64,000 bases of DNA from Thereva unica (taxonomy: Eukaryota > Arthropoda > Insecta > Diptera > Therevidae): assembly GCA_949987705.1 (NCBI GenBank), contig OX465282.1, forward strand, positions 66,461,922 to 66,525,921. Direction: 5' to 3'. Position numbers and translations under genes: made by a program. The notes below the pieces were generated by a model, which worked only from the letters and a program-made list of their open reading frames with translations, was not told where the DNA came from and searched no databases. The stretch's first letter is position 1. Every line of letters starts with the position of its first letter. This document shows positions 1,801-45,697 of the stretch, in pieces.

Positions 1801-2263
1801 TGTTCGTTAGAAGTTGAATCAACGACTGTGGGTAACTGTCTGAACTAACTAACTGAGCGATAATTGAAGACAACTTTAAGCTTCTCAAAAACTCGTCGAA
1901 AAGGAAAGAACATACCACTAGGGGCTAGAAAATGGACGAAGGTTCCAGAAGTTAGATAAAGGTGGAGCTTGGATATATAAAAGCGACTTGCACGCTCTGA
2001 GGGAGTCAGTTTTGATTTGAAAAGCGACGAAAGTGTTCTAAAGTGATAACAGTGAAAAGTGGTGATTTAAAAGTGAATCATAAAGCGTTAAAAAAGTTTT
2101 AATAGTGCGGGATATTAAATTGAAAGTGATTATAGTGAACTTTAAGAATTGTGTTTGTTATTAAATTGTGTTTTTGTTTGTAATGAATAAGTTTTGTGTG
2201 GATAATTAAAAAGTGTATTCCTTAATTAATCCTACGAATCCGTTAAGCCAAAAAAAGGTAACA
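1801..2263 (+). repeat. 5' LTR of Gypsy-1 copy A
   Basis: Starts TGTTCG and ends GTAACA. It matches the split 3' LTR (10970-11105 plus 17098-17438) and, in reverse, the copy B LTRs. It lacks about 20 bases present at the start of the 3' LTR. Confidence 0.8.
1974..2011 (+). promoter_or_regulatory. LTR core promoter: TATA box and initiator
   Basis: TATATAAAAG at 1974-1983 is followed by the arthropod initiator TCAGTT at 2006-2011, with the presumed +1 A at 2008. The spacing is slightly longer than the usual 30 bases. The same TATA box is kept in both copy B LTRs (2763-2772 and 6309-6318, - strand). Confidence 0.55.
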
Positions 2264-2283: not shown

Positions 2284-2491
2284 TAATTAAGAGATAAGTG
2301 AAATAAGTGAACTTGAAAAATAATTGTGGCTGGAATTTAAATTTTGTTCGTGAGAAATAAGAACTTAATAAAGGTGGCGGTTCCTCTTTGGAAGCAAAGG
2401 AAGCACTGCTTCCCTTGACCAAATAGGCAACTTCATAAAAAATTAATTGAAATATATATCAAGATTAATCAGAAGAAAAATCTCAATATAT

Positions 2492-2974
2492 TGTTACGTT
2501 TTTACGGCTTAACGGATTCGTAGGATTAATTACGGAATACACTTTTTAATAATCCACACAATAATTTATTTATTACAAACCAAACACAATTTAAAAATAA
2601 ACACAATTCTTAGAGTTCACTATAATCACTAGCAAATTTAATAACTCGCACTATTCAATTCTAATTATCGCTTTTTATTTCACTATAAATCACCACTTTT
2701 CACTTTGGAACACTTGTATCGCCTTTATAATCAAAAACTCACCCGATAGCGGCTGTCAGGCGCTTTTATATAGGCAGCTCCACCTTTGTCTACTTTCTGG
2801 AACCTTCGTTTTCTGGTTCCTTGTGGTATGTTCTATTTTTCTTTTAGTTTCGACCAGCTTGAAGTTGTCTTCGCTTATCGCTCGTTAGTTTAGTACATAA
2901 ATTCTTAATTCAGACAACAACCGATAAATCGTTGATTTATCCTCTCGACAAACAGATGGCGCATAATCATCACA
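2492..2974 (-). repeat. 3' LTR of Gypsy-1 copy B
   Basis: 483 bp, bounded on the + strand by TGTTACG and ATCACA. Nearly identical to 6038-6520. It contains the TATA box (reverse of 2763-2772). Confidence 0.9.
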
Positions 2975-2989
2975 TTGCCCCCTTCTTAG
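2975..2989 (-). other. Polypurine tract of Gypsy-1 copy B
   Basis: Read on the - strand, AAGAAGGGGGCAA sits directly before the 3' LTR, where second-strand synthesis is primed. It overlaps the end of the coding region. Confidence 0.6.
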
Positions 2990-5275
2990 GACTGTTCGTC
3001 CCGAACAGTTGTCCATCCTGGATCCGGCTGATGATATGGGCACAGCCTGTCTATGTGCACAATCTTCTTCTTTGCTTTGGGTCCTTGTTGAATCCTGTAG
3101 ACCACATCGTTGATCCGTGTTAGGATTTTATAGGGCCCCTCCCACTGACGCTGAAGTTTCGGAGACTTGCCTTTCCGTCTTCGAAGGTTGAACAGCCAAA
3201 CGAGGTCACCTTCCTCGAATCCGCTACAGTTTGCTCGGAGGTCGTACCTTGGTTTCATCCTGTCACTGGCCGTCTTAGGATTTTCCCCTGAGATTTTGTC
3301 AACTGAGGCTCCAACGTGGTGTTGTCTTATTTCTCCTTTCGCTCTTACTCGAGGACCCTTGCTGCCGGCACAAACTGTGCATTTGCGACACCAATTCGTA
3401 ACATCCTCCCGCATGTGAAGCCAATAGAATCTCTCCTTTATTTTTGACAGAGTTTTGTTGACTCCCAAATGTTCTCCTGACGGGCTATTATGACACTCCT
3501 CAAGAATATCTGTTATTCCAGCACGAGGGACTAACACCTGCATTCGATGAGAGGTACCATCAGCTGTTTCCCATTTGCGCTTCAATACTCCTCCTTCGAT
3601 ATGCAATGAATCCCATTGGGCCCAATAGCTCTTCAGGATTTCACTTCTCTCTGCGATGTCTTTCCATTTAGGCTTCTCGTTGTGTTCTTTCCATGACAAA
3701 ATCGCAGAAATGTCCGGGTCGTCGCGTTGCGCATCTCGAATTCCTTGGTCCTCATATTTTATGCTTGGCTCCGCAGTCGTCTTTTGACACTTTTCCTCAA
3801 TACGCCAACGATACTTAAAACCTGGTTCGCATGGTCGCCGGGACAGTGCAGTATCCATTGGAATTCCCCGGTTGCGGTGTTTCATCATCAATTCTCCAAG
3901 GTCCAATAGTATTCCGTGTGTTGTCATAAAGTCCAAACCAAGAATACACTCGTCAACTATGTCAGCTACCAGGAACGCATGTGTAAACTTAATGTCGCCG
4001 AGTACCACGTCCATCATTGTTTCCCCATGTAATTTCACTGGTTCTCCTGTTACAGTTTTCAGAATGTACTGGTCCGCGTTTTTCAGCCACTTTCTACCGG
4101 CCAAATCAGTCCTGATGACAGATCTTGAAGCACCTGTATCCACGGTAATTGTGTATTGTTCATCGCCAACTTTCCCCTCGATGACAAGGCTGTTGTTGCC
4201 ACGCTGCAGTTGGGTGATGTTGACGATAACATCAGGGGTCTCAATTTTCCCCACCAACTCCCTCCGGTCGCTTTTCTGCCGTTGTCCACATTTTCCACAG
4301 CATGTTGAGCCACTCCTACTCCCTGGCGATTCCACTCTCCTTCGCTTTCGGCAGCTCCTTTGTAAATGGCCCGGCTCGCCACAGTTCCAGCATCGTAGAC
4401 GACGACGTACTTCCGAGGTGTTGACTCGATGGCAAATGTTCTCAGTCATATTGATTCCCCTGAGGTGGACCGTATTCCTTGTTGCTTGCTTCGCTGCCTC
4501 GTATGCCAGAGCATATGCCAGAACTTCTGCTGTAGTCTTCTTTCCGGCCAATCTGGCCGCCATTTGCAGATCCCGGTCGGCAAACGAGTTAAGAAGAGTC
4601 TCTCTTGTTATCTCGTTAATGTAGTCTTGACAGAAATTAGGATATGCCAAACGCGCTAGCCTCTCGATATCTGCCCAAAGTTGCTGCAACGTCTCTCCGG
4701 GCCTTTGAAATCTATTTCGTAATTGAGTTCGGTAGACTGGCTGCATGTGTTGTTCACCGTAACGCACTTCCAGTGCTTGTACCAAGGACTCGTAGCTGTT
4801 ACGATGTTCTGTAGGTATCGACAGTAGCAGTTCAGCTGCTGCACCCCTTAGTGACAACGTTAAGGCAATTGCTTTCTCTTCCGCTGTCCAGAAATTACCA
4901 GCTGCTGCTGCTTCCAATTGGATCTTGTAAATAGACCATGGGCTTTGCCCGTCGAAAGTTGGAGGCTGCAGTTTCCTAACTCCGATGACTTCGTGAGATG
5001 CCGTCGCTGGGTGGTGAATCTTTACCCTTTCTAGCTCTGCTCTGACCGATTCTAGCTCAACCTTCAACTTTTCATCATTTTCCCTCATGGAATTTTCGAG
5101 CTTTTCCAGATCATTCTCTACATTTGCTTTAATGGAAGATTCGAGATTTTCCAGCTTTTTGTCAACAGAGAATGACATTAGTTCGAATTTCTGCTCCATC
5201 TGGTTTCTCTGTTCTTCCATAGACTCTTTGAGTTCTGCTAACGAGCGTTCATGAGCTACTGCTAATAATTTCTGT
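2986..5275 (-). CDS. Gypsy-1 Gag (C-terminal part)-protease-integrase-end fusion protein
   Basis: Main reading frame of copy B; the Met at 5220 lies inside Gag, and the frame is open up to the MITE joint at 5275. Counting from that Met: coiled coil (about 1-70), retrotransposon Gag capsid-like domain (95-245), CCHC knuckle CWNCGEPGHLQRSC near 275, then CCGKCGQ, and an aspartic protease with DTGASRSVI near 360. The frame then passes in phase to a segment normally found just after RNase H (ALSRRPC), an integrase HHCC zinc site (HLGVNK...CRKCTVC, near 580-615) and the integrase C-terminal WEGPYKIL (near 690). RT, RNase H and the DDE core are absent, yet there is no stop. The same joints occur in copy A, so the deletion was inherited. 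It probably still makes particles and cleaves Gag; this is inference. Confidence 0.85.
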
Positions 5276-5564
5276 CAGGGCCGGATTTATATATTGCGGG
5301 GCCCCAAGCACAACCTCGTGATGGGGCCCCCAACAATGACTACCGTAGTTACGTTTAGTTTTACATTTATTGTTTTGGTCGCAAAACTATGACGGTTGTA
5401 TATTTGATTCGCAAAAGAATATTATGAAAACATTATGGCCAAACAATTTGTTTACTTCCCTTTTATCTAAAGACGAACCAAACAAAATATAAGAGGCGCG
5501 GGGCCCCCTGAGGGTAGGGGCCTCAAGCAATTGCTTGTTTTGCTTGTTGGTAAATCCGGCACTG
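5276..5564. mobile_element. hAT MITE inside Gypsy-1 gag
   Basis: 289 bp with terminal inverted repeats CAGGGCCGGATTTA and (read inward from the right) CAGTGCCGGATTTA, flanked by the exact 8-bp duplication ATTTCTGT (5268-5275 and 5565-5572). It has no coding potential and contains GC-rich blocks near both ends. It sits between the two halves of copy B gag. Removing it plus one TSD copy rejoins gag in frame, so the host element was intact when hit. Confidence 0.88.
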
Positions 5565-5925
5565 ATTTCTGTTCATCTTTTAACGCCAACACTTCCGCCT
5601 TGATCTCTGTTGTCGCTTCTTTCATCTCTGCTGATGCACGTTCTTGCGCTGCTGATGACCGTTCTTGCGCTGCTGATGACCGTTCTTGCGCTTCCTTCAT
5701 CACCATCAATGTTTTAAAAAGTTCTGCCATACTCACTGTCGTTTCTTCTGGCTCCGCTTCTACTTCGGCTTCAAAAATGTAGGTTTCAGGATCTTTTCCC
5801 TCGTTCACCATAGCTTCTCGAAGCAGCGCGGTTAAGGAACTTTTAGCACCCACCGTTGACAACGAGCGTTTACTTAGTTCTGTTTTCAACTCCACAGTAC
5901 GCAAATCAACTAATTTTCGACCCAT
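5467..5925 (-). CDS. Gypsy-1 Gag N-terminus with SAP-like domain (split by MITE)
   Basis: Starts at the Met at 5925, about 110 bp inside the PBS, and runs as Gag to about 5565. The last residues (5467-5564) are encoded by the MITE and are not native. Residues about 5-45 (VDLRTVELKTELSKRSLSTV, then GAKSSLTALLREA) look like a SAP motif, a short helix-extension-helix fold that binds nucleic acid. It is followed by an acidic stretch and a coiled coil with three near-identical QERSSAA repeats (about residues 80-100). A SAP motif at the start of a retrotransposon Gag may help packaging or chromatin targeting; this is inference. Gypsy-2 has a similar N-terminus. Confidence 0.75.
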   Translation of the reverse strand: MGRKLVDLRTVELKTELSKRSLSTVGAKSSLTALLREAMVNEGKDPETYIFEAEVEAEPEETTVSMAELFKTLMVMKEAQERSSAAQERSSAAQERASAEMKEATTEIKAEVLALKDEQKSVPDLPTSKTSNCLRPLPSGGPAPLIFCLVRL

Positions 5926-6017
5926 TTTATTATTATGTCTTTAGTTCGCACTCACAAAAATTAAATTCCAATCACAATTATTGTTCAAGTTCACTTATTT
6001 CACTTATCTCTTAATTA

Positions 6018-6035
6018 ATCCCACTTCTGACACCA
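6018..6035 (-). other. Primer binding site of Gypsy-1 copy B (tRNA-Leu)
   Basis: The + strand reads ATCCCACTTCTGACACCA, the expected 3' end of a tRNA-Leu including CCA, two bases inside the LTR. It primes minus-strand DNA synthesis. Confidence 0.75.
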
Positions 6036-6037
6036 AT

Positions 6038-6520
6038 TGTTACGTTTTTACGGCTTAACGGATTCGTAGGATTAATTAAGGAATACACTTTTTAATAATC
6101 CACACAATAATTTATTTATTACAAACCAAACACAATTTAAAAATAAACACAATTCTTAGAGTTCACTATAATCACTAGCAAATTTAATAACTCGCACTAT
6201 TCAATTCTAATTATCGCTTTTTATTTCACTATAAATCACCACTTTTCACTTTGGAACACTTGTATCGCCTTTATAATCAAAAACTCACCCGATAGCGGCT
6301 GTCAGGCGCTTTTATATAGGCAGCTCCACCTTTGTCTACTTTCTGGAACCTTCATTTTCTGGTTCCTTGTGGTATGTTCTATTTTTCTTTTAGTTTCGAC
6401 CAGCTTGAAGTTGTCTTCGCTTATCGCTCGTTAGTTTAGTACATAAATTCTTAATCCAGACAACAACCGATAAATCGTTGATTTATCCTCTCGACAAACA
6501 GATGGCGCATAATCATCACA
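6038..6520 (-). repeat. 5' LTR of Gypsy-1 copy B
   Basis: 483 bp, same ends as the other copy B LTR, three differences seen. TATA box at 6309-6318 (- strand). Followed by the ATAT duplication. Confidence 0.9.
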
Positions 6521-6524
6521 ATAT

Positions 6525-7704
6525 TTTCTCCACTGGAAACACTAAGTATGCAATGTACAGATTTTTATATACCAAATGTACAATTGAGATTTATCATACT
6601 ACTGTATACAAAGAGTAAAGTCTTGGCCACGATTTGAGCGGCGAATGGTGAGCGGCAGAGTGGCAAATACTAAAGTGCTTCTCGCCGCTCCTATCGTGGC
6701 CGAAGCCTTACACAACATGGGAAGCTGTGATATCGTCAGCTTCTTTGCCTCAGAAAATCAATGTGAAAACTCCAACACATTCAATTTCATTGAACTCGCA
6801 CTCACGCAAAGGTTTGCGTTGATACAGTACCCTCAGAAGCTGAGCTAAACGTAGCTTCTTTGGAGCCGAACAGTGGGTTATGAGAAGTCGAAGATACAGA
6901 AATTTTCTGTATCCACCGTATTCTCTTTATTTTCTTGATTTCGTTTTTGGTAATGTTCTGGTTTCGAGTAAGAACTAAATTTAAATTTACTTCGAAATTT
7001 GTTTTTGACTCTTACAATATGAATTTTCGTTTATTGTATATTGAGTGAAGAAAAAAGAGATCGAAGTTAGGAGAAGATTCTCTTTATCTTTTGGTTTTCT
7101 AGAGGGTGGCAGGCGGTGTTTATAAAAAATAAGCTGATAACTTTGTAGCTTCCATTATATTTTTTATGATTATCTATAAAGAAGATTTAAAGGAATAGAG
7201 AATATGTTTAGAATTGTATTTTTAAGTTCGGGTTGCCTAAAGTGTTCTTTTGCAAGAAGATTGTAATGATGGTGAGCGAAGGTTACAAAAGAAAATAAGG
7301 AGTGTGTGCGAGGTATGCAGGGTTTTATTATTACTATCTTTTTTAGCTTTAGAGCCAAAATTATGCATTTGCATGAAAAATTAAACGAGATCAAAGTAGT
7401 AGTTGCAGTTTTTCAATGGCTTTTCTTTAGACGCTTTAATTATCAACAGAATCTGAAAAAAGACGCAAAATGCCCTCTAGCAGCGGAACTATTTCGAAAA
7501 AATTGAAAATGCCAAAATTCACGTTTTGCGATTCGTATAGCATTCGATGTAACTAGAAACTGGAAACAATTTCTTATGTTTTGTTTATCTGATTCCACTA
7601 TATGTTATTTTTCAGTTTTTTTAGTTAAAGCCTTCGATACTTTTACTTCTATCGTTCGCTTTGCGTATTGCTTCCCTTATCCTGAACCTTACGAGCCGCC
7701 ACTG
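6525..7704. other. Internal sequence of the hAT-like element, no gene recognised
   Basis: Non-coding remainder of the 2372-7704 element. It contains a compact inverted repeat (6622-6643 with 6683-6705, stem GGCCACGAT...GAGCGGCGA) able to form an approximately 84-nt hairpin. Short ORFs here show no domain. Confidence 0.5.
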
Positions 7705-8079
7705 CTTAATAATAAAATGGGGCGAAAGTTTGCGCACTACGGAGTTGAAAAGAGAATTAAGTAAACGCTCGTTATCAACGGTGGGGGCTAAAAATTCTCT
7801 AACCGCCCTGCTTCGAGAAGCTATGGTTAACGAAGGTAAGGATCCTGAAACCTACATGTTTGAAGGCGAGGTAGAAGCAGAGCCAGAAGAAGCAGCATTG
7901 AGTATGGCAGAACTTTTGAAGGCATTGAAGCTATAGAAGAACAGAGGAGGCAGATGAAGCATAAAATAGATTTAATGCTTCTTTCTGTCGACAAAAAGTT
8001 GGATACCATGAGGGAAAATGCAAGAAATAATTTGGAAAAATTCAAAATTGATCTAGAAACCGTCCGTGCTGACCTAGAA
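7705..8079 (+). pseudogene. Gypsy-1 copy A gag, N-terminal remnant
   Basis: Homologous to the copy B Gag N-terminus: Met at 7717 (MGRK), then a frameshift; the main frame (to 7936) keeps the SAP-like stretch KRELSKRSLSTVGAKNSL and the acidic NEGKDPETY region, and a second frameshift near 7930 leads into the coiled coil (EEQRRQMKHKIDLM). It stops matching at 8079, where an LTR fragment replaces the capsid region. At least two frameshifts make it non-functional. Confidence 0.8.
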
Positions 8080-8160
8080 AGTGAACTTTAAGAATTGTGT
8101 TTGTTATTAAATTGTGTTTTTGTTTGTAATAAATAAGTTTTGTGTGGATAATTAAAAAGT
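8080..8160 (+). repeat. 81-bp LTR fragment embedded in copy A gag
   Basis: Matches 2134-2214 of the same element's 5' LTR at 80 of 81 positions by eye (taatA versus taatG). It joins the Gag coiled coil to the end of the zinc-knuckle region and so replaces the capsid domain. Template switching during reverse transcription is the simplest origin. Confidence 0.85.
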
Positions 8161-8613
8161 CGTCGAAAGTGAAGGAGGGAGTCTCCAGGGTGTAGGAGTG
8201 GCTCAACATGCTGCGGAAAATGTGGACAACAACAGAAAAGCGACGAGAGGGAGTTGGTGGAGCAAATTGAGACCCCTGATGTCATCGTCAACATCACCCA
8301 ACTGCAGCGTAGCAACAACAGCCTTGTCATCGAGGGGAATGTTGGTGATGAACAATACACAATTACAGTGGATACAGGTGCTTCAAGATCTGTCATTAGG
8401 GCTGATTTGGCCGGTAGAAAGTGGCTGGAAAATGCGGACCAATACATCCTGAAAACTGTAACAGGAGAGTCAGTGAAATTACACGGGGAAATAATGATAG
8501 ACGTGGTACTCGGCGACATTAAGTTTACACATTCGTTCCTGGTATCTGACATAGTAGACGAGTGTATTCTCGGTTTGGAATTTATGACAACACACGGAAT
8601 CCTATTGGACATT
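8161..8613 (+). pseudogene. Gypsy-1 copy A protease region
   Basis: The frame 8254-8613 matches the copy B protease, with the catalytic VDTGASRSVIRADL near residue 43 and the C-terminal ILGLEFMTTHGILLD. The stretch before it (8161-8250) is the degraded end of the second zinc-knuckle region. The frame runs into the foldback, whose first bases supply a stop at 8614. The protease core looks intact, but it has lost its upstream Gag and downstream pol. Confidence 0.8.
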
Positions 8614-10046
8614 TAGTGGAGTCAGATGAGCAAAACATAAGGAATTGTCTCGAGAGTAAAATTTTTTTTTGGAACATGTTAGTTACATCGAATACTATAC
8701 GAAATGGACATTTTCTACCTCTAGCAACCGCCGCTACGTAAGTTATCGGCCATTATGTCAAAAACTTACCATTTTGGTCGTTCTTTCTAAATATAGATGC
8801 GTATATCTCGGCATGTGCAGATCCGAAAAAATCGAAAAAAATAGAGGTTGTTCGTTATGATATTGGCTACCAGCGGTTACAATATGAAACTTTTATGTCC
8901 ACACATAACCCCAAAAAAATTCAAAAACTGAAGAAACTACTGAATTTTGGTTTTTTGGTGATAACTTCAGATATTTTTCGTGAAATTTGATGAAATTTTC
9001 AAAAGTTATACTTTATAATGTGAACAATAACTGGTTAAAATTTCAAGTCAAAATATCTAATACAAGGCTCAAAAATTGACTTCAAATTTGAAAATTGATT
9101 GGCCTATCAGTTTTGTGCGTCGCTTCGTATGAGGTTCTTTCTATTTTTTAAATGTAGGTTCTTTTATGCACTTTTGATGGTGAAAAAGAAAAATTTTTAA
9201 ACTTGAAGAAAAGTGAAAAAATCGAATCGACAATCGACAATTTTTGCATTTTTTCAGCAATTTTTTAGAAAAATTTGAACTTTTTTTGGCAAAGTTCAAT
9301 TTCTATTGTATTATTAGTTCATTTTTGACATATGATGATCGAAAAATTGACTTTTATCAAAAACTGTGTATTTTTTCTAAAAAAATTGACGAAAAAATGC
9401 AAAAATTTTCGATTGTCGATTCGATTTTTTTCACTTTTCTTCAAGTTTAAAAATTTTTCTTTTTCACCATCAAAAGTGCATAAAAGAACCTACATTTAAG
9501 AAAAAGAAAGAACCTCATACGAAGCGATGCACAAAACTGATAGGCCAATCAATTTTCAAATTTGAAGTCAATTTTTGAGCCTTGTATTAGATATTTTGAC
9601 TTGAAATTTTAACCAGTTATTGTTCACAATATAAAGTATAACTTTTGAAAATTTCATCAAATTTCACGAAAAATATCTGAAGTTATCACCAAAAAACCAA
9701 AATTCAGTAGTTTCTTCAGTTTTTGAATTTTTTTGGGGTTATGTGTGGACATAAAAGTTTCATATTGTAACCGCTGGTAGCCAATATCATAACGAACAAC
9801 CTCTATTTTTTTCGATTTTTTCGGATCTGCACATGCCGAGATATACGCATCTATATTTAGAAAGAACGACCAAAATGGTAAGTTTTTGACATAATGGCCG
9901 ATAACTTACGTAGCGGCGGTTGCTAAAGGTAGAAAATATCCATTTCGTATAGTATTCGATGTAACTAACATGTTCCAAAAAAAAAAAAATTTACTCTCGA
10001 GACAATTCCCTTTTCACTAAAATTTGATGCTCATCTGACTCCACTA
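8614..10046. mobile_element. 1.43-kb foldback element, long palindrome
   Basis: Arms of about 660 and 670 bp (8614-9275 and 9375-10046) are near-perfect reverse complements around a roughly 100-bp loop. The ends are TAGTGGAGTCAGATGAGC and its reverse complement. It lies between copy A bases GGAC and GGAG. Treating ATT (8611-8613, 10047-10049) as a 3-bp duplication restores the reading frame seen in copy B, whereas a TA duplication would not. No transposase; the 63-residue ORFs in both arms are mirror images of one sequence. The superfamily is unknown. Confidence 0.85.
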
Positions 10047-10966
10047 ATTGGAGAAGGAATGATGAAACATCGCAACAGGAGAATTCTAATAGATACTTCA
10101 CTGTCCCGGCGATCACGCGAACCAGGTTTTAAATATCGTTGGCGTATTGAGGAAAAGTGTCAAAAGATGACTGCTGAGCCAACTATAAGATATGAGAACC
10201 AGGGAATTCGAGATGCGCAAAGCGACGACCTGGACATTTCTCCGATTTTGTCATGGAAAGAACACGAGGAGAAGCCTAAATGGAAAACATCGTAGAGAGA
10301 ATTGAAATCCTGAAGAGCTTTTGGGCCCAATGGGATTCATTGCATCTCCAAGGAGGAGTATTAAAGCGCAAATGGGAAACAGCTGAAGGTACCTCTCATC
10401 GAATGCAGGTGCTAGTCCCTCGTACTGGAATAACAGATACTCTGGAGGAGTGTCATCATAGCCCGTCAGGAGGACATTTGGGAGTCAACAGAACTTTGAC
10501 AAAAATAAAGGAGAGATTCTATTGACTTCATATGCTGGAGGATGTTACGAACTGGTGTCGCAAATGCACAGTTTGTACCGGCAGTAAGGCTCCTCGAGTC
10601 AGAGCGAAAGAAGAAACGTGACAATAACGTTAGAGCCTCAGTTGAGAAAATCACAAGGAAGGATCCTAAGACGGCCATAGACGGTGATAGGATGAAACCA
10701 AGGTACCACCTCCAAGCGAACAGTAGTGGATACAAGGAAGGTGCCCTTATTTGGCTGTTCAACCCCCGGCGACGGAAAGGCAAGTCTCCGAAACTTCAGC
10801 GTCAGTGGGAGGGGCTCTATAAAATCCTAACACGGCTCAACGATGTTGCCTACAGGATTCAACAAGGACCCAAAGCAAAGAAGAAGATCGTGCACATAGA
10901 CAGGCTGTGCCCATATCATCAGCCGGATCCAGGGTGGACAATTGTTCGGGACGAACAGTCCTAAGA
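10047..10966 (+). pseudogene. Gypsy-1 copy A pol remnant (integrase ends, no RT)
   Basis: Same joint order as copy B: end of the protease linker (MMKHRNRRILIDTSLSRR), a post-RNase H linker, integrase zinc site (GGHLGVNRTLTKIKERF, CRKCTVC), then directly the integrase C-terminal region (WEGLYKILTRLNDVAYRI). Frames are 10059-10295, 10280-10525 and 10542-10964. There is a frameshift near 10285, a Trp-to-stop change at 10523-10525 and further shifts near 10620. Sharing both internal deletions with copy B shows this is a family trait. Confidence 0.85.
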
Positions 10967-10969
10967 AGG

Positions 10970-11105
10970 TGACAATTGAAGAACTTAGAAGTTAGAAGTT
11001 GATTCAACGATTGTGGGTAGCTGTCTGAACTAACTAACTGAGCGATAATTGAAGATAACTTCAAGCTTCTTAAAAACTCGTCGAAAAGGAAAGAACATAC
11101 CACTA
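10970..11105 (+). repeat. 3' LTR of Gypsy-1 copy A, first part
   Basis: Begins TGACAATTG after the purine tract CTAAGAAGG and matches the 5' LTR up to the bases ACCACTA, where LINE-B is inserted. Confidence 0.8.
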
Positions 11106-11181: not shown

Positions 11182-13461
11182 TCTATATCTATAAAAATCT
11201 CGTGTCACAGTGTTTGTTACCGTACTCCTCCGAAACGGGTTGACCAATTTGCATGAAATTTTTTGTGTATATTTGGTAGGTCTGAGAATAGGTCGTAGGC
11301 TATTTTTTATACCTTTAACCAAAAAAACAGCTGCAAAATTCAAACAAAAATGGTAATTTTAGGAATTTTCACTTCATTTTAGTTTCAATAGCTTCATGGC
11401 CTACCTATTGTTTGACACATGTAAAATTGTCATTAAATTGAATCATTAGATACATTTAATGAAAATTTCAAATTTACGCAGCTGTCAAACAATAGGTAGG
11501 CCATGACACTATTGAAACTAAAATGATCCATTGCGGCCGTCTCAAGAGGGCGGTGTACCACTTTCTTCACAACCACCTCGACATGGGTATCAAATGAACG
11601 GGTATGATAAGTAGAATACAATAAGCAATGTAGTATACAAAATATATCTTTAGATCCATGGCGGCCGTCTCAAGAGGCCGGATTACCACTTTCTTCACAA
11701 CCACCTCAACATGGGTATCAAATGAAAGGGTATGTTAAGTAGAATATAATAAGCAATGTAGTATACAAAATATATCTTTAGATCCATGGCGGCCGTCTCA
11801 AGAGGGCGGGGTACCACTTTCTTCACAACCACCTCGACATGGGTATCAAATGAAAGGGTATGATAAGTAGAATACAATAAGCAATGTAGTATACAAAATA
11901 TATCTTTAGATCCATGGCGGCCGTCTCAAGAGGCCGGATTACCACTTTCTTCACAACCACCTCAACATGGGTATCAAATGAAAGGGTATGTTAAGGAGAA
12001 TACAATAAGCAATGTAGTATACAAAATATATCTTTAGATCCATGGCGGCCGTCTCAAGAGGGCGGGGTACCACTTTCTTCACAACTACTTCGACATGGGT
12101 ATCAAATGAAAGGGTATGATAAGTAGAATACAATAAGCAATGTAGTATACAAAATATATCTTTAGGTCCATGGCGGCCGTCTCAAGAGGGCGGGGTACCA
12201 CTTTCTTCACAACCACCTCAACATGGGTATCAAATGAAAGGGTATGTTAAGTAGAATATAATAAGCAATGTAGTATACAAAATATATCTTTAGATCCATG
12301 GCGGCCGTCTCAAGAGGGCGGGGTACCACTTTCTTCACAACCACCTCGACATGGGTATCAAATGAAAGGGTATGATAAGTAGAATACAATAAGCAATGTG
12401 GTATACAAAATATATCTTTAGATCCATGGCGGCCGTCTCAAGAGGCCGGATTACCACTTTCTTCACAACCACCTCAACATGGGTATCCAATGAAAGGGTA
12501 TGTTAAGGAGAATACAATAAGCAATGTAGTATACAAAATATATCTTTAGATCCATGGCGGCCGTCTCAAGAGGGCGGGGTACCACTTTCTTCACAACCAC
12601 TTCGACATGGGTATCAAATGAAAGGGTATGATAAGTAGAATACAATAAGCAATGTAGTATACAAAATATATCTTTAGATCCATGGCGGCCGTCTCAAGAG
12701 GGCGGGGTACCACTTTCTTCACAACCACCTCGACATGGGTATCAAATGAAAGGGTATGATAAGTAGAATACAATAAGCAATGTAGTATACAAAATATATC
12801 TTTAGATCCATGGCGGCCGTCTCAAGAGGCCGCATTACCACTTTCTTCACAACCACCTCAACATGGGTATCAAATGAAAGGGTATGTTAAGGAGAATACA
12901 ATAAGCAATGTAGTATACAAAATATATCTTTAGATCCATGGCGGCCGTCTCAAGAGGGCGTGGTACCACTTTCTTCACAACCACTTCGACATGGGTATCA
13001 AATGAAAGGGTATGATAAGTAGAATACAATAAGCAATGCAGTATACAAAATATATCTTTAGATCCATGGCGGCCGTCTCAAGAGGCCGAATTACCACTTT
13101 CTTCACAACCGCCTCGACATGGGTATCAAATGAAAGGGTATGATAAGTAGAATACAATAAGCAATGTAGTATACAAAATATATCTTTAGATCCATGGCGG
13201 CCGTCTAAAGAGGCCGGATGACCACTTTCTTTGCAATCCCCTCAACATTGGTATCAAATGAAAGGGTATGATAAGTGGAATACAATAAGCAATGTAGTAG
13301 ACTCAATATACCGATTCATGGCGGCCGACGCAAGACCCATGTTCTTTGAGGCATTTCATCTGTGTAAAATTCATATCTCGAAAAATATTAAGTCAATGGA
13401 TGGTTTTTATTGTTTACTATTGACTTATGGGTGCAGCGTAGGCGCACCGGGTCCCAGCTAG
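11182..13461 (+). mobile_element. Helitron-like (HINE/Helentron type) non-autonomous element
   Basis: Starts TCTATATCTATAAAAATC, close to the common 5' end of insect Helitron-like elements, and ends CAGCTAG. A hairpin GTGC(7)GCGCAC lies about 10 bases before the CTAG end. It sits between A and T with no target-site duplication, as Helitrons do. The interior is mostly a 14-unit tandem array. No Rep/helicase is encoded. It is inserted in the LINE-B 3' UTR. Confidence 0.75.
11525..13316 (+). repeat. Tandem array of fourteen 128-bp units with 256-bp higher-order period
   Basis: The word GATCCAT recurs every 128 bases from 11525 to 13189. Units alternate between type A (AGGGCGGGGTACC, TCGACATGG, TATGATAAG) and type B (AGGCCGGATTACC, TCAACATGG, TATGTTAAGG), cleanly for units 1-5 and 7-9, with mixed or repeated units at 6, 10 and 13. 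Repeated short ORFs of 60 residues on the - strand are by-products. A core of about 50 bp is related to the array at 22.3-24.0 kb. Confidence 0.92.
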
Positions 13462-17092: not shown

Positions 17093-17097
17093 TAGTA

Positions 17098-17438
17098 GGG
17101 GCTAGAAAATGGACGAAGGTTCAAGAAGTTAGATAAAGGTGGAGCTTGGATATATAAAAGCGACTTACACGCGCTGAGGGAGCCAGTCTTGATTTGAAAA
17201 GCGACGAAAGTGTTCTAAAGTGATAACAGTGAAAAGTGGTGATTTAAAAGTGAATTATAAAGCGATAAATAGAATTTAATAGTGCCAGATATTAAATTGA
17301 AAGTGATTATAGTGAATTTTAAGAATTGTGTTTGTTATTAAATTGTGGTTTTGTTTGTAATAAATAAGTTTTGTGTGGATAATTAAAAAGTGTATTCCTA
17401 ATAATCCTACGAATCCGTTAAGCCTTAAAAATGTAACA
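17098..17438 (+). repeat. 3' LTR of Gypsy-1 copy A, second part
   Basis: Resumes at GGGGCTAG after LINE-B and matches 1922-2263 to the terminal GTAACA. It includes the TATATAAAAG promoter box. Confidence 0.85.
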
Positions 17439-18060
17439 GTATGTATATTTCTGAAAAACTTTTTTTGTGGTCTTTGACCCTCCATAACATGAGTAGCCGG
17501 CCAGTTGGATCTATGGACTTTTGGGAAATTATTTGTGACACCAAATGTATAAAGTGACTGGTCTATTATCCATAACACATAAATATAACTTAGGCTATAT
17601 TGTTAGTACCGGATGTTAGTAAAGGACTGTTTCGAAGTGGATGGGAAAAACAGGAGCTGTGAGTATTGAAGATCACACAACATCTGTTAGCAATGTCCTT
17701 AACGTTATTACTAAGGGGCCCAGCAGCAGAAAAAATTCAGTCCATACCTGCAGAACATCGAAACAATTAGAGGTTATTGGTTCAAGCATGGAAATGCGCT
17801 ACGGTGCAGTACATGCAAGAGGTTTATCGACTTCAACTTTAAAGTAAACTTCAAAGGCCAGGAGAAGCTTAACAACAACTATGCGCTGATATCGGAAGGT
17901 TAGTGCAACGACGTAACAAGAGAGGCTTTCCTTAACTCTTTTACCTACCGGGATCTACAACAAACAGCAAGATTAGCCGGAAAGAAGAATACGGCAGAAG
18001 TTTTGGAATATGAGGTAGCAAAGCAAGCATCAAGTAGTGCAGTCCTCCTCAGGGAAAAAA
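17439..18060 (+). pseudogene. Degraded Gypsy-1-related gag fragment
   Basis: The first 200 bases show nothing. From about 17640 the + strand carries capsid and nucleocapsid-side Gag homologous to copy B, in several frames: EMRYGAVH, QRPGEA, then REAFLNSFTYRDLQQTARLA and GKKNTAEVLEYEVAKQA. Multiple stops and shifts. It ends where an RTE-1 LINE begins at about 18075. It is a separate, older copy because its Gag capsid region is absent from copy A. Confidence 0.6.
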
Positions 18061-20484: not shown

Positions 20485-20690
20485 TATATGTATATACTAA
20501 GTGAATTAAACGCAATGTCATCCATTCTAAAAAAGTTGTTAAACGTAGGTAGGTCCTCTAGCCCATTTAATTCTTTTGTGATAAAAGAAAAGCACCTTTT
20601 ATCCCTCCTTGCTTTGCGTAAATGTTTTATCCATGTTTTTTTTTCTTGGAACAAATTCCTATTAAAATACTATCTGCTGCTGCTTGAGTA
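20485..20690 (-). pseudogene. PIF/Harbinger transposase N-terminal fragment
   Basis: Read on the - strand, an open stretch gives KKTWIKHLRKARRDKRCF, then TKELNGLEDLPTFNNFFRM and DDIAFNSL. This follows the W-x(n)-R...L..EL...F.NF.RM...F pattern upstream of the DDE domain in HARBI1-like nucleases. The catalytic domain is absent. It could be the remains of the enzyme that moved the neighbouring TTA, CTG and CAG elements; recognition is by pattern only. Confidence 0.45.
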
Positions 20691-20714
20691 TTTCGGCATC
20701 GCTGGTTCTCACAT

Positions 20715-21190
20715 CCTATACTTGGCCCAACAATCGTCCTTTAACACTTTTCCTTGTTACGTCAATGATACTTAAAACCTAGTTGAATTTCCATGTTGCG
20801 ATATTACATCATTTCTTCTCCAATGTCCAATAGAATTCAGTGTGTTGGCATACAGTCCAAACCGAGAATACACTCGTCTGTTATGTCAATGTCGCCGAGC
20901 ACCACATCCATTGTGATTTCCTGTTACAGTTTTTCAGCCACTTTCTACCGACCAAGTTAGCCCGGATGACAGACCTTGACACACCATTATCAACGGTAAT
21001 TATACATTTTTAATCTCAACTTTCCCCTTGATGACAAAGCTGTTGTTGACTCGGCACGCCGCAGTTCCGCAGTCGGGTACCTACTTCCGAAATGTTTATT
21101 CGGTTACAAAAAATGTCCTCTGTCATATTGTTTTCACTGAAGCGGACTGTATTCCCTGTAACTTCTGTGGTAGTCTTCTTTCCAGCCATT
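20715..21190 (-). pseudogene. Gypsy-1-related fragment: protease and Gag zinc-knuckle region
   Basis: Aligns to copy B about 3780-4560 in the same orientation: protease side (ACACTCGTCTGTTATGTC matches the copy B ACACTCGTCAACTATGTC), the DTG region and the Gag segment at the knuckle. Many substitutions and deletions. It continues at 24849 after the insertion of the 21194-24845 element. Confidence 0.65.
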
Positions 21191-21361
21191 CTGGGGCCAG
21201 TTCACACAATTCGACGTCGACTGAAAACGACGCGTTAAATGTCGTTTTGGGTTCACGCAAGTCGACGTTTTATGTTTGTCGTTTTAAAAGTGTCGTTAAT
21301 CTTCTCGACGCCAGATTTGGCGTCGAATTCATTTATTGTTGTATTAAAAACGATTTGTGGT

Positions 21362-21778
21362 GCCAATTACAGCAGAGCAGATATAATTTTACACAAAACT
21401 TTTTACAGTTCTGAACGAGCAAAATGCAATAGAAAAAATAAAAACTATTAGTTGAAAAATAACAATTATAACTACACCAAGAAGAGTTAGATGTACAAAA
21501 ATAAATTCAGAGTTGAGATTTTCCAATATTATTATGAATTTGTTTAATTAATTAATTTAATTACTCACATTATTGAAGTTTTAGTATTATTTGCAGCTTG
21601 TCCCCCTTGTGGATAATGTGAAAAGTGCAGCGGTTTCATTGGATTTTGCATACCTTTAGGAGAAATTATTTTGGGAAAACCACATTCGACACGTCGACTT
21701 ATACAATTACAGCAGAGCAGATATAATTTTACACAAAACTTTTTACAGTTCTGAACGAGCAAAATGCAATAGAATAAA
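21362..21778 (+). repeat. Direct repeats inside the Harbinger-like element
   Basis: A block starting ATTACAGCAGAGCAGATATA (about 21365-21430) recurs at about 21708-21776. The segment 21434-21705 recurs at 24036-24175 plus 24610-24750, the second copy being split by the SINE. This implies unequal crossing-over or replication slippage before the SINE arrived. Confidence 0.75.
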
Positions 21779-22174
21779 ATAAATGGTTAAAAAAAATTTT
21801 TAAAAAAAATTCTTTTCATTAACTAAAAAATGTACTGAAAAGTAAAAAATAAAAAATATTTTAAAGAAAGCGTGAAATTTCAATTTTAATGAAAAAGTTA
21901 ATTAAAAGAATGGCGCATTTTTCATCAAAAATTGAAAATATAACTGTAAATCGCGTGAGATTTACAATAACCCTCAATTTTTTGCTTTGTTAATTTCAAA
22001 TTCTAACAAAATTTTTTGATGAAAAATGCGCCATTCTTTTAATTAACTTTTTCATTAAAATTGAAATTTCACGCTTTCTTTAAAATATTTTTTATTTTTT
22101 ACTTTTCAGTACATTTTTTAGTTAATGAAAAGAATTTTTTTAAAAAATTTTTTTTAACCATTTATTTTATTTTC
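21772..22174. repeat. 403-bp palindrome, arms about 162 bp
   Basis: Arms 21772-21933 and 22012-22174 are nearly exact reverse complements (for example GAATGGCGCATTTTTCATCA in the left arm) with a 78-bp loop. It is AT-rich, with no ORF. It sits exactly where the second direct-repeat copy ends, so it may be a small foldback insertion. Confidence 0.75.
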
Positions 22175-22254
22175 TACTTTTTAGTTTATTATATGTATTC
22201 CGCCATTTTATGATGGCAATTCTATCAGATTTAAAATTACGCCACACAGTTTAC

Positions 22255-24015
22255 TGTATTCATTTGATACCCATGTCGTGGGCTCGGTGGAACATAATTG
22301 CAAAAACGGCCGCCATCTCGGAACCGTCTTCTTGATTTTTTTACAAAAAGGTCAGATTGCATTTAGTATGTACTTATACATGATGAGTTGAACTCAAGTT
22401 GAACCCAAGTCTAACTACATGTAAACGGGAGTCGAGTTGGGTTAAGGTTGACTGAACTCGACTCAGCTCTGCTACCTGGGTTTAGTTGAAATTATGCATA
22501 CGGACATGAGTTCAGTATTTGAGTAGTTGAATTTAGTTGACAGCAGCATCTCTGTGTTTGTTTGTGATTTTTTTGTAACGTGTATTGCTTCTTTATTATC
22601 AACTCACCCTTAACTCAACCAATAATCTCATTAACCACCCGAACTACGAGTGTGTGCAAAATTGGAAGTTGATCGGTTATATTTCTTTTTAGTCTATTAT
22701 AAGCTTTCCGCAATTTAGTGTTGGCCGCCATTTTGAATTTGGAATGACGCCACATAGCTTATTGTGTTCTACCTGTCATATCCTTTCATTTGATACCCAT
22801 GTCAGAGGGCCGCGGAGCACAATTTCAAAAATCGGGCGCCATTTTGGAACCGCTATCTTGATATTTTTACAAAATGGCCAGATTGCATTGTCATCCAAAC
22901 TAAACGTGTATGCAAAATTTCAGCTCTATCCGAAACCGGGAAGTGGGTCAAATTTAACTTGCAAGATTTGACGACAAACAGTGTAAGTGTTGGCCGCCAT
23001 TTTGAATTTGGAATGACGCCACATAGCTTATTGTGTTCTACCAGTCATATGCTTTCATTTGATACCCATGTCAGAGGGCCGCGAAGCACAATTTCAAAAA
23101 TCGGGCGCCATTTTAGAACCGCCATCTAGATATTTTTACAAAATGGCCAGATTGCATTGTCATCCAAACTAAACGTGTATGCAAAATTTCAGCTGTATCC
23201 GAAACCGGGAAGTGGGTCAAATTTAACTTCCAAGATTTGACGACAAACAGTAGTAAGTTAAATAAATCGGGCGCCATTTTGGAACCGCTGTCTTGATGTT
23301 TTAAAAAAATGGCCAGATTGCATTGTCATCCAAACTAAACGTGTATGCAAAATTTCAGCTGTATCCGAAACCGGGAAGTGGGTCAAATTTAACTTCCAAG
23401 ATTTGACGACAAACAGTGTAAGTGTTGGCCGCCATTTTGAATTTGGAATGACGCCACATAGCTTATTGTGTTCTACCAGTCATATGCTTTCATTTGATAC
23501 CCATGTCAGAGGGCCGCGAAGCACAATTTCAAAAATCGGGCGCCATTTTAGAACCGCCATCTAGATATTTTTACAAAATGGCCAGATTGCATTGTCATCC
23601 AAACTAAACGTGTATGCAAAATTTCAGCTGTATCCGAAACCGGGAAGTGGGTCAAATTTAACTTCCAAGATTTGACGACAAACAGTAGTAAGTTAAATAA
23701 ATCGGGCGCCATTTTGGAACCGCTGTCTTGATGTTTTTACAAAATGGCCAGATTGCATTGTCATCCAAACTAAACGTGTATGCAAAATTTCAGCTCTATC
23801 CGAAACCGGGAAGTGGGTCAAATTTAACTTCCAAGATTTGACGACAAACAGTAGTAAGTTAAATAAATCGGGCGCCATTTTGGAACCGCTGTCTTGATGT
23901 TTTTAAAAAATGGCCAGATTGCATTGTCATCCAAACTAAACGTGTATGCAAAATTTCAGCTCTATCCGAAACCGGGAAGTGGGTCAAATTTAACTTCCAA
24001 GATTTGACGACAAAC
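22255..24015 (+). repeat. Tandem array of long (about 270 bp) and short (about 160 bp) related units
   Basis: Long units start TTGGCCGCCATTTTGAATTT and occur at about 22720, 22988 and 23425, with a diverged one at about 22255. Short units start AATCGGGCGCCATTTTGGAA and occur at about 23264, 23700 and 23868. All end CGAAACCGGGAAGTGGGTCA then AAGATTTGACGACAAACAG. The long-short block 22988-23410 is repeated as 23423-23860, so part of the array is a higher-order duplication. Shares TTTCATTTGATACCCATGTC with the 128-bp array. Confidence 0.85.
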
Positions 24016-24167
24016 AGTGTAAGTTAAATAAAAGAATTTAAAAATAAAAACTATTAGTTGAAAAATAACAATTATAACTACACCAAGAAGAGTTAGATGT
24101 ACAAAAATAAATTCAGAGTTGAGATTTTCCAATATTATTATGAATTTGTTTAATTAATTAATTTAAT

Positions 24168-24616
24168 TTTTTTTTTATGTGACAGACTAGAGGCTTAGGG
24201 AAAGTCCCTTTGTACTGTCGACAATCTATTTTTTCGTATCGAGTGAATGTCGGACAGCAGCTCTAGCCGGAAGATAGAGAGAAGAGAAGGAAGTAACTGT
24301 CACAACCTAGCCGCGATATTTTATTCCACCAACTCACAACCATTTCGCGACTCTGACATCGGGGCGTCGAGAACAACTCGCTGGAGTGTTATGCCTCCTG
24401 AAACGAGTTGAATCTCATCAACCAACCGATGGCATGCGCTTGGTGGAGCGGGGAAGGAGTAGAGAAGGCTATGACAGGGGAATCAGGAATGTAAAGAGGG
24501 AAGAAGAAAGAAGGAAAGTTAGGTGGGAAAGGCGAAGGACCGTGGCACCGCCGGGATTCGAACCCGGGACCTCTGGGGATAGCAGTCAGGCGCCTTACCT
24601 CTAGACTACCGAGGCC
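24168..24616 (-). mobile_element. tRNA-derived SINE
   Basis: The right end is tRNA-like on the - strand: GGCCTCGGTAGTCTAGAGGT (box A) and GGTTCGAATCCC (box B) about 40 bases on. A body of about 370 bp follows, ending in AGTACAAAGGGACTTTCCCT, then AAGCCTCTAGTCTGTCACAT and an A-tail (T-run at 24168-24177). The acceptor ends do not pair and no CCA-ready 3' end exists, so it is not a tRNA gene. It interrupts the second copy of the 21434-21705 duplication. The box A/B pair should act as an internal Pol III promoter. Confidence 0.78.
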
Positions 24617-24848
24617 CCTCACATTATTGAAGTTTTAGTATTATTTGCAGCTTGTCCCCGTTGTGGATAATGTGAAAAGTGCAGCGGTTTCATTGGATTT
24701 TGCATACCTTTAGGAGAAATTATTTTGGGAAAACGACATTCGACACGTCGACTTACGTGAACTCAAATTCAACGTCGTAGAAATTAATGTCGTTTTCATA
24801 AAGCGTCGATGTCGACGTCGAGTGTCGAATTGCGTGAACTGGCCCCTG

Positions 24849-25180
24849 GTTGCCTGCTGCATTTCCTGGGCGATAAATCAGGTAGCCTCTCTTGCTACCT
24901 TGTTAATGTAGTTTTGCCCGAAATAAGGATATGCCAAGCGCGCTAGCTTCTCGATATCTGCACACCGGAACTCCTGGCCTTTGAAATCTATTTCGTAATT
25001 GAATGCGATACACTGGGCAGATCGCCGTAACGCATTTCTAGTGCTTGTACCAAAGACTCGTAACTGTTGCGATGTTCTGCAGGTATTGACAGTAATACTT
25101 CAGCTACATCTCTTAGTGACAGAGAAAAGGCTATTTCTTTCTCTTCCTCGGTCCAGTAATTACTCGCTGCAGCTGCTTTG
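24849..25180 (-). pseudogene. Gypsy-1-related gag fragment (capsid side)
   Basis: Continues the fragment 20715-21190 beyond the Harbinger-like insertion and aligns with copy B about 4560-4920: GTTAATGTAGT, GGATATGCCAAGCGCGCTAG and TTGAAATCTATTTCGTAATT match with few changes. No open frame. Confidence 0.7.
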
Positions 25181-25829
25181 AATTTAATTCATTTTACGGT
25201 AATAAATATGCTTTAAATCGAAAATAAAACCTTTTAATGATTAATTTTTCAGCACACAGCACAGTTTTTATTTACTCAAAAATTATTTTTATAAATGGAA
25301 CTTTGAATAGAGAAGATAAGGAACCGAAAATAGCGTACATGTACACGGATTTGAGGGAAGCACTGGGGATCAAGAAATTTTCTCTCTAATTCTCTCCCTC
25401 CACTTTAACCACAACAACAAAATACATTCACTCTAGGCCACAACAACAAAATACATTGTCAATCCCGGACATAGGCGTAGTGAAATTTGTTCAGGTTTTG
25501 CGAAGGGTCTGCTTCAAACATTTAGCCAAGTGAAGGGTTCTCACCGAGATGGTTGCTGAGAAACGATATCCCTCCCGGTTTTTGAATGAATATAACACAG
25601 CCACTGACCGGGATTGACACAAATACGTAAAGAATGCTATGCATTAGTGTTGCCAAAATGCTTCCCCGTGTTTAATAAATTGCACTTCCTCGTCTTCTCT
25701 ATTCAGAGAAATGGAACAATAAAGTGTTTTTATTTTCCGCTTCTACTCAATGGCGATGTTAGCAGTTAAAAGGTTACTATCCCAGGTTTGTGTAAAAGGA
25801 AACTAAGAAAAATGGGCTTACATTGATAC
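25181..25829. other. Unannotated AT-rich stretch
   Basis: No gene or element recognised. A short direct repeat CCACAACAACAAAATACATT occurs twice (about 25407 and 25438). Confidence 0.4.
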
Positions 25830-41523: not shown

Positions 41524-41594
41524 TGCCCATCTTGATATACGCGGGTTTAGAAGTTTTTTCTGAAGGGTAAGTGTTAACGCTTGACAATCAGTAA

Positions 41595-41921
41595 CTATAT
41601 TTTGAAATATATGCCTGTTAAATAAATTCTAAACCTTCTCAAAGCATATATAATTGATAAAGTTTCGAGCTCATAGCTGTGATATTTGGATTCCAGATCT
41701 GTTGCCCTTTTTGAAAAATAAAATATAGGGTGAAATTTTCCATCGCTTTGGCGTTGCATGAGAATTGCTCCGAAACCAATACTGCTTGCGTCGCAATGTA
41801 GCTCGGTCTCGTTATGGGGGCTATATATTGCTAAGATAGGCGATTCTACAAGCTTCGATTTTAAATTTTCAAAAGTTTCTAATTCTTTTTTACCGAAATT
41901 AAAGGGAACATCTTTACGCAA
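41595..41921 (-). pseudogene. Gypsy-2 RNase H segment
   Basis: Continuation of pol: RKDVPFNFGKKELETFENLK (RT-RNase H connection), then LHCDASSIGFGAILMQRQ and FYFSKRATDLESKYHSYELE, the RNase H start with its catalytic Asp and Glu. It ends at a frameshift near 41605, where an extra TA (...AAATATAG...) breaks the phase into the next frame. Confidence 0.8.
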
Positions 41922-41937
41922 AAGGTCATAAAGAGGT

Positions 41938-45561: not shown

Positions 45562-45697
45562 TAGTCCAGTAAATAGGTCGAAAAACATTTCCGACATTTA
45601 AAGCGCTATAACTCGTGAAATATTAGCCCTATCTAAAAATGATAATCGTGTGTTCTATAAGTCTTAGAAAGCACTTTTTTATGGCGGGCTAACCGTT

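Follow-up and report, generated by a model that had tools for sequence, protein, structure and literature searches.

How can a retrotransposon that encodes neither reverse transcriptase (RT) nor an integrase core spread through a genome, and does what is left of its reading frame still do anything? The question is raised by a Ty3/Gypsy element in a 64,000-nucleotide stretch of Thereva unica DNA (the window; C2:66461922-66525921 of the 910-Mb source assembly), where one copy of the element, B, is nested within the remains of another, A. A first-pass annotation of the window had proposed that the deleted form itself moves, being selected for packaging in cis with enzymes supplied in trans. The analysis below makes it very likely that this is a semi-autonomous Ty3/Gypsy family whose deleted form has apparently been amplified in trans by helper elements, with its own product under selection and probably acting in cis.

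Copies A and B share two internal joints

The 744-residue frame of copy B encodes, in order, a Gag part, a CCHC motif, protease, the segment that follows RNase H, the integrase H2C2 zinc domain and the integrase C-terminal domain (CTD). Pfam recognised CCHC, aspartyl protease, Integrase_H2C2 and integrase C-terminal domains in it and gave no match to RT or rve, and tblastn with pieces of protein P0002 found neither RT nor integrase core; copy B is without RT, RNase H and the integrase core. The annotated picture of Gag, protease and both integrase ends kept and the catalytic parts lost holds as far as these domains go, but it overlooked a third deletion, of 77 nt or, in another alignment, 85 nt, at the gag/protease boundary, which puts gag and protease into a single frame. 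Nor is the 744-residue frame the whole of gag, because a miniature inverted-repeat transposable element (MITE) cuts off the gag start of copy B. As had been stated, the frame is open across both of the larger joints and the long terminal repeats (LTRs) differ at three of 483 positions; they are flanked by the target-site duplication (TSD) ATAT. We take the primer binding site (PBS) to be tRNA-Leu-like.

Both joints also lie within one unbroken stretch of copy A, colinear with B and with identical nucleotides at 88/100 and 174/203 positions around them, so that the two copies do share the joints as described. Copy A is decayed (foreign insert, gag middle replaced, foldback MITE, stops and frameshifts), and its 5' and 3' LTR fragments differ at 8/117 aligned nucleotides, or are 95% identical over 115 in another alignment; it is older than copy B. 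Copy B inserted separately and later, since it is nested in an insert that is itself nested in A, with a TSD around each. The two are 91% identical in the interior and 81% in the LTR (75/398 differ), and a cassette so much more B-like than its LTR fits an older association of copy A with another LTR, as far as the alignments tell.

The deleted form is dispersed through the genome

We searched the assembly with patterns spanning joint 1 (44 nt, at most 3 mismatches) and joint 2 (39 nt), using the reversed patterns as controls. Joint 1 gave 447 matches (226 + 221), joint 2 gave 375 (187 + 188) and the controls none; among the matches listed, joint places fell on contigs C1 and C2, with one on C4 for joint 2. 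A sample of joint-1 loci (the 30 that come first among the 447, 3044 nt each, every one matching exactly and lying on C1) was continuous over the gag/protease joint in 30/30 cases and over joint 2 in 27/30, the exceptions being L021 and L045, disrupted by other changes, and L032, which carries an integrase core. By tblastn, RT had no match in the 30 loci or in B and L014-L019, and the integrase core had just one, in L032.

The copy B LTR gave 45 genome matches from the best 40 of 2590 candidates, and the pairs visible among those listed were spaced by ~3.2-3.5 kb or ~5.6-5.7 kb. Eleven loci with LTR matches (L009-L019) were read whole besides B. Together with B they include five separate deleted insertions, each with its own TSDs, on C1, C2 and C4 (B, L014, L015, L016 and L017), which have joints 1 and 2 in common; L014 falls in the long-spaced class because a 2.4-kb insert sits in its protease part. 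L018 and L019, whose flanks match those of L017, are segmental copies of it, and L009 and L010 also share flanks. LTR pairs of the five differ at 0, 1, 2, 3 and 5 of 479-483 positions, and the family has TG..CA ends, TSDs of 4-6 bp, a PBS and a polypurine tract (PPT), the TSD of full-length L012 being imperfect. When the 30 joint-1 loci (L032 included) are joined with L014-L017, 24 of the 34 are covered over at least 98% of residues 91-744, and 18 of these 24 have no in-frame stop, indels not being judged. The proposal that the deleted form itself spreads is thus borne out by hundreds of joint matches and by recent insertions with LTRs and TSDs, and the counter-case of a local duplication with no dispersed copies was looked for and not found. 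The same numbers set the family apart from a host-domesticated Gag gene, a single locus without LTRs or TSDs.

The copy A LTR (best 40 of 2646 candidates) found copy A itself, copy D at 94% and other LTRs at 88-91%; the first eight matches (L050-L057) had no RT or integrase-core match within the fetched flanks.

Full-length relatives and mosaic copies

The full-length relatives that the proposal calls for exist as four separate insertions, L009 (with its duplicate L010), L011, L012 and L013. L009-L013 carry RT-RNase H followed by integrase with its core, the arrangement by which Gypsy elements are recognised and which the deleted form lacks; the motifs were seen in L009. These full-length copies are kin of the ancestor from which the deleted form derives. 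Their gag (465-498 aa, stop to stop) and pol (1207-1234 aa) overlap in different frames, and LTR pairs of the four differ at 0, 0, 2 and 3 of 481-482 positions. Aligned with L009, copies B, L015, L016 and L017 lack the identical 77, 1748 and 561 nt, and L014 lacks 77 and 561.

The relation between the two forms changes along the element. LTRs of deleted and full-length copies are 97.5-99.6% identical and do not sort by form, full-length L013 matching deleted L015 at 99.6% and full-length L009 at 98.1%. Among copies read whole, the two forms are 96-100% identical in the LTRs and from the CTD to the 3' end. In the untranslated region and the gag N-terminal part some deleted copies are 99-100% identical to a full-length copy and others 84-94%, with a border that varies. 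From the end of capsid (CA) to H2C2, deleted and full-length copies are mostly 74-88% identical (the value of 53-54% in one 160-nt window over the gag/protease deletion is an effect of alignment), whereas deleted copies are mostly 96-99% identical to one another there, 89-93% in the last part. Median nucleotide identities of deleted copies (n 31-35) to the best of the four helpers are.978 in the gag N-terminal part,.943 in CA,.770 in nucleocapsid (NC),.787 in protease,.827 in the post-RNase H segment,.837 in H2C2 and.983 in the CTD, so that the block from NC to the zinc domain differs by 16-23%. At synonymous sites, B and L009 have diverged (dS) by 0.46-0.80 in CA, protease, the post-RNase H segment and H2C2, and by ~0 in the CTD.

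L032 is a chimera, with the deleted-form cassette (95-99% to L017) up to H2C2 and then helper sequence with the integrase core (97-100% to L009). Most simply, these mosaics would reflect particles that contained RNA of both the deleted form and the helper, and repeated switches between the two templates; gene conversion could also have produced them. Near-identical LTRs, PBS and PPT, together with the helper mosaics and L032, suggest that the enzymes are supplied in trans.

Apparent selection on the product of the deleted form

Variants were compared across the 34 loci, differences being taken against B. Private variants, found in one copy, are mostly post-insertion; shared variants, found in several, have passed through replication. 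The comparison omitted variants in at least 90% of copies and any codon that could be read in fewer than 10, and the main test of nonsynonymous to synonymous changes (N/S) also excluded codons occurring in the four full-length copies. No copy pair exceeded 99.5% identity in the cassette.

Over CA, NC and protease, private variants had an N/S of 161/74 with 4 stops and shared variants 56/64 with none (P 5.7e-5), in agreement with the expected selection on Gag and protease. The post-RNase H segment and H2C2 behaved alike, with 81.5/20.5 and 6 stops among private variants and 16.5/18.5 and no stops among shared ones (P 3.1e-4; separately, P 0.039 for post-RNase H and 0.005 for H2C2), as did the CTD (27/17 with 2 stops, 6/12 with none; P 0.04). 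For the three blocks CA-NC-protease, post-RNase H-H2C2 and CTD, P was 3.5e-8, 2.0e-5 and 0.02 when helper codons were not excluded and single-nucleotide codon variants were taken; still with helper codons kept, it was 1.4e-4, 0.003 and 0.017 without CpG sites and 0.010, 0.012 and 0.29 for transversions only. Wrong-frame controls (two frames, site by site, helper codons kept) gave P 0.83-1.

Copies A and B differ with an omega of 0.30 in the NC tail and protease (P 0.005) and 0.34 in the CTD (P 0.085); for B against L009 and L013, omega is 0.21-0.25 in post-RNase H and H2C2 and 0.16-0.23 in CA and protease. The four zinc ligands are kept in 29/31, 31/31, 31/31 and 31/32 of the loci readable at each site. 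The product of the deleted element thus appears from these substitution patterns to be under purifying selection with the integrase remnant included, and reaching the remnant is indicated beyond the Gag and protease named at first. Equal service to all RNAs would let copies with broken frames spread alike, so selection on a copy's own frame argues that the product probably acts in cis.

A predicted fold of residues 441-744 has two domains with an overall pLDDT of 68: blocks in the post-RNase H and zinc part score 72-94, those in the C-terminal part 82-89 with one at 53, and those around both joints below 50. The best Foldseek matches were foamy virus integrases (E from 1e-4), followed by intasome structures of Ty3 integrase (E 1e-3 to 6e-3); the overall TM score is low (~0.2), a level to be expected of two separated domains.

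RT-less proteins in other arthropods

Three protein searches gave 104, 346 (120 listed) and 90 matches, each from the best ~8000 candidates and within limited lengths (409-1302 aa in the first), and 287 proteins including that of the window were classed by domain; derivatives without the integrase ends would be under-counted, since the queries contained them. Proteins from Araneus ventricosus, Diaphorina citri, Cordylochernes scorpioides, Cacopsylla melanoneura and a metagenome combine Gag with an integrase C-terminus and lack RT and integrase core, the zinc domain being present in all but Diaphorina. Joints are shared among the Araneus, Diaphorina and Cordylochernes proteins examined, at breakpoints that differ from those of the window family, and some have lost the protease.

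The 120 listed proteins (Araneus, Trichonephila and one other) were measured. From protease end to post-RNase H the distance is 32-33 residues in 27/46 measurable proteins and 332 or more in the remaining 19; from H2C2 to CTD it is 83-94 residues in 28/68, 50 in one and 128-246 in the rest. Among the 31 measurable at both places, 18 are short at both, one (P0133) at the first only and none at the second only. P0133, from Araneus, has RT deleted and the integrase core kept, as a single-deletion intermediate or an L032-like recombinant would. The Araneus clusters P0107 (42 sequences) and P0127 (48 sequences, protease lost too) have 865 and 781 codons that fill most of their 2820- and 2668-base contigs and therefore leave no room for an RT intron; it is for Araneus alone that such an intron is ruled out. 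This multi-copy spider family has the layout of the window family with other breakpoints.

In Diaphorina, eight clusters (25 member sequences) run from the protease linker through the CTD; they lie on long contigs and may have been spliced into this shape by the gene predictor. Diaphorina also has separate gag-only and protease-RT-integrase proteins (P0008, P0222, P0217-P0220) beside an RT-less form that is one Gag-protease-CTD protein, a separate-versus-fused layout as in the window family. Cordylochernes (on long contigs), Cacopsylla and the metagenome protein P0244 have Gag-H2C2-CTD without protease. In a tree of post-RNase H-H2C2, the RT-less rows of Araneus and Cordylochernes cluster with full-length rows from the same species (100/97 in both cases), and the window copy falls elsewhere, with Diaphorina, other full-length rows and a long-branched Cacopsylla (weak, 80/81). 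This grouping supports a separate origin in Araneus and in Cordylochernes and lends no such support to the psyllids, and the case is less firm outside the spider. All of these elements, the spider ones included, are known here as proteins only, and the pseudoscorpion and psyllid cases are leads. Beetle predictions (Aromia, Molorchus and Exocentrus) were rejected as RT-less families, those of Aromia having variable breakpoints that look like predicted introns; they are kept out of the argument for convergence and remain in the domain counts of the 287 proteins. Viral, prokaryote and phage collections held no relatives at the sensitivity of the tools used.

Proposed mechanism and competing explanations

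In the mechanism that we propose, three deletions (gag/protease fusion, RT-RNase H and integrase core) made a full-length element into a single-frame Gag-protease-coreless-integrase element. Its RNA would be packaged together with helper RNA, with the helper's enzymes carrying out reverse transcription and integration; template switching would keep exchanging its LTRs, gag start and 3' end for those of the helper, and its product would act preferentially on its own RNA. The cis packaging with trans enzymes proposed at first gains support from selection, near-identical LTRs, the mosaics and the chimera, its trans and cis halves each being a conclusion drawn from these patterns. We suggest tentatively, as possible rather than probable, that a coreless integrase behind Gag and protease is a working protein with a non-catalytic job in cis that evolved several times in arthropod Gypsy elements; it might anchor its own RNA inside the particle or lend C-terminal domains to the helper integration complex. 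The isolated C-terminal domain of HIV-1 integrase becomes part of the integration complex and enhances integration in vitro (PMC11281638, in its available text), and HIV-1 integrase anchors RNA to the capsid mainly via its C-terminal domains (PMC13102720, likewise).

Several results weigh against selection throughout the frame. The CTD result is weaker than the others and is confounded by exchange with helpers; the shared-versus-private contrast was at P 0.06 in the gag N-terminal part and showed no significant difference in NC and linker alone (P 0.28). Shared variants are older than private ones and some may stem from recombination, the exclusion of helper codons covers only the four helpers read, and over the integrase remnant the A-B pair gives a weak signal (omega 0.55, P 0.10). 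In the spider, RT-less rows sit on longer branches than full-length ones, which could reflect weaker constraint there.

Unlikely, though with real points in its favour, is that selection maintains Gag and protease and that the integrase parts survive chiefly as stretches of homology through which template switching can return to the helper 3' end. The CTD and 3' LTRs are nearly identical to those of helpers, p-distances between spider RT-less and full-length proteins are lowest in the CTD (.06-.09, vs.20-.25 in Gag), and L032 switches at the H2C2 region; yet this leaves the protein-level selection on post-RNase H and H2C2 unexplained, and these parts have not been homogenised with helpers (medians 83-84%, the top copy reaching 93% in H2C2).

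We consider it improbable that the element is a passive parasite that depends on nothing of its own beyond LTRs, PBS, PPT and a packaging signal and merely carries the frame, and the integrase remnant in particular, along with it. Non-coding non-autonomous LTR elements do spread in mosquitoes and plants (PMC3286476, in the text available), one spider subfamily has also lost protease, and between A and B omega is 0.69 in post-RNase H (P 0.43) and 0.54 in H2C2 (P 0.22), neither significant. Against this stand the shared variants of the remnant, which show a strong synonymous bias and no stops when read in the correct frame and in no other, zinc ligands kept in nearly all readable loci, and a remnant omega for B against L009 and L013 that is near that of CA and protease.

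That the joints arose by splicing of genomic RNA rather than by template switching or repair has little to recommend it beyond their being exact, shared and frame-keeping and the many predicted insect proteins that skip RT as if by introns; we reject it as very improbable, the edges of the breakpoints, as aligned, lacking GT-AG and being marked by short direct repeats of ~5-6 nt (gag/protease joint, joint 1) or ~4 nt (joint 2) in a comparison of B with L009 only, read by eye. Local duplication of one dead copy, making A and B look like a family, has next to no chance: segmental duplication does occur here, as the flanks of L017/L018/L019 and L009/L010 show, but A and B have diverged by 9% in the interior and by 19% in the LTR, copy B carries a TSD of its own within the insert in A, and the 447 joint-1 matches and five separately inserted deleted copies refute it.

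Relation to known systems

The semi-autonomous family favoured here resembles, to the extent that the available text of each source describes them, two kinds of known element. RLG_Sabrina_SA and RLG_WHAM of wheat, semi-autonomous GAG-Pro Gypsy elements with RLG_Wilma as helper, are high-copy, encode Gag and protease without RT or integrase, and have LTR ends and PBS in common with a full-length partner (PMC9744471). The window family likewise keeps Gag and protease, lacks the catalytic parts in many copies and has a full-length partner. It differs in that integrase sequence, the zinc and C-terminal domains, is kept and selected and that exchange with the helper is extensive; the wheat elements are from plants, have little helper homology left, and the available text mentions no integrase remnant in them. 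The mouse IAP I-Delta-1 is an in-frame Gag-Pol fusion by internal deletion, non-autonomous and dependent on proteins supplied in trans, whose fusion protein acts in cis and which is the source of most new IAP insertions (PMC6466679, available text). An in-frame fusion by deletion is found here too; IAP I-Delta-1, however, is an endogenous retrovirus with a single 1.9-kb deletion, unlike the window family with its three deletions, RT-RNase H and the integrase core being lost separately and the zinc domain between them kept.

In RLG_Quinta/RLG_Cereba and Zeon/Cinful the short partner gives Gag and the long one polymerase; as far as the available texts go, these are plant elements with Gag only, Quinta having in addition a domain of unknown function (PMC11302176, PMC8547701). 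TRIM and LARD elements have no coding capacity, which does not describe a 744-aa frame under purifying selection. Non-coding or truncated elements are known from mosquitoes (PMC3286476, available text), and we found no arthropod Gag-protease-coreless-integrase family in the open-licence literature, so far as its available text goes. The novelty of the family, set against its nearest known counterparts, lies in an integrase that has been retained under selection without its core.

This makes the family a natural, countable experiment on the roles of integrase besides DNA cutting and joining, a remnant having stayed under selection after removal of the core. One animal genome, moreover, shows a deleted element trading LTRs and ends with its helper. 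LTR swapping between partner elements reportedly also occurs in soybean. Such trading is the step proposed for host switching in plants, where LTR transfer is invoked for RLC_Angela (PMC9744471, in its available text).

Features of the window

Table 1. Positions of the element copies and their parts in the window.
Feature	Position	Strand	Remark
Copy B 3' LTR	2492..2974	-	483 nt, 3 mismatches to other LTR
Copy B 5' LTR	6038..6520	-	483 nt
Copy B TSD ATAT, left	2488..2491	.	
Copy B TSD ATAT, right	6521..6524	.	
Copy B PBS region	6016..6037	-	identical in 10/11 other loci read; 1 difference in L013
Copy B PPT region	2975..2992	-	identical in 10/11 other loci read; 1 difference in L009
Copy B frame, 744 aa	5220-2989 (also given as 2986..5220)	-	open over joints 1 and 2
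Gag/protease fusion (third joint)	4250..4272	-	77-85 nt missing vs full-length L009
Aspartyl protease, residues 347-432	3925..4182	-	
Joint 1, protease linker to post-RNase H segment	3850..3870	-	1748 nt missing
Integrase H2C2 zinc domain, residues 564-621	3358..3531	-	
Joint 2, integrase zinc domain to integrase C-terminus	3270..3305	-	561 nt missing
Integrase C-terminal SH3-like domain, residues 671-744	2989..3210	-	
hAT-like MITE, 289 bp, within copy B gag N-terminal part	5276..5564	.	
MITE 8-bp TSD ATTTCTGT	5268-5275 + 5565-5572	.	
Copy A 5' LTR, truncated, then PBS-like sequence	1806..2263	+	
Foreign hAT-like insert in copy A, contains copy B	2372..7704	.	
Foreign insert 8-bp TSD CTTAATAA	2364-2371 + 7705-7712	.	
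Copy A gag N-terminal part, then 81-nt LTR fragment (8080-8160)	7707..8160	+	
Copy A NC tail and protease	8164..8613	+	
Copy A protease linker to C-terminus	10048..10975	+	joint 1 ~10080-10100, joint 2 ~10640-10675
Copy A 3' LTR fragment	10991..11105	+	
Copy D, LTR fragment and gag piece	17096..18057	+	LTR 94% identical to copy A LTR
Copy C, decayed third relative in pieces	20684..25188	-	gag 24845-25188; NC, protease, joint-1 area 20684-21194

In copy C, protease runs into the post-RNase H part at about the place of joint 1; a further 33 nt are missing, which leaves the joint unsettled, and this copy was dropped as a third witness. The 81-nt LTR fragment that replaces the gag middle of copy A is 98.8% identical to A's own LTR and looks like the result of template switching or filler repair. 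Copy A also holds a foldback MITE (8615-10046) with 560-nt arms, 99% complementary, and a TA target duplication, and it is adjoined by a tandem array (11525-13310) of 14 copies of a 128-bp unit, 94% alike. Nested tandem repeats with periods of 166, 269 and 435 bp lie between the copy C pieces (22717-24032), and a tRNA-like sequence at 24542-24616 (tRNA-Pyl by ARAGORN; Rfam tRNA, 31.9 bits) is probably a tRNA-derived repeat. Further along are two Gypsy elements of other families with gag, RT or integrase parts (40150-44417 and 57793-60388) and, at 45690-47777, two inverted 920-nt stretches that are 99.5% alike.

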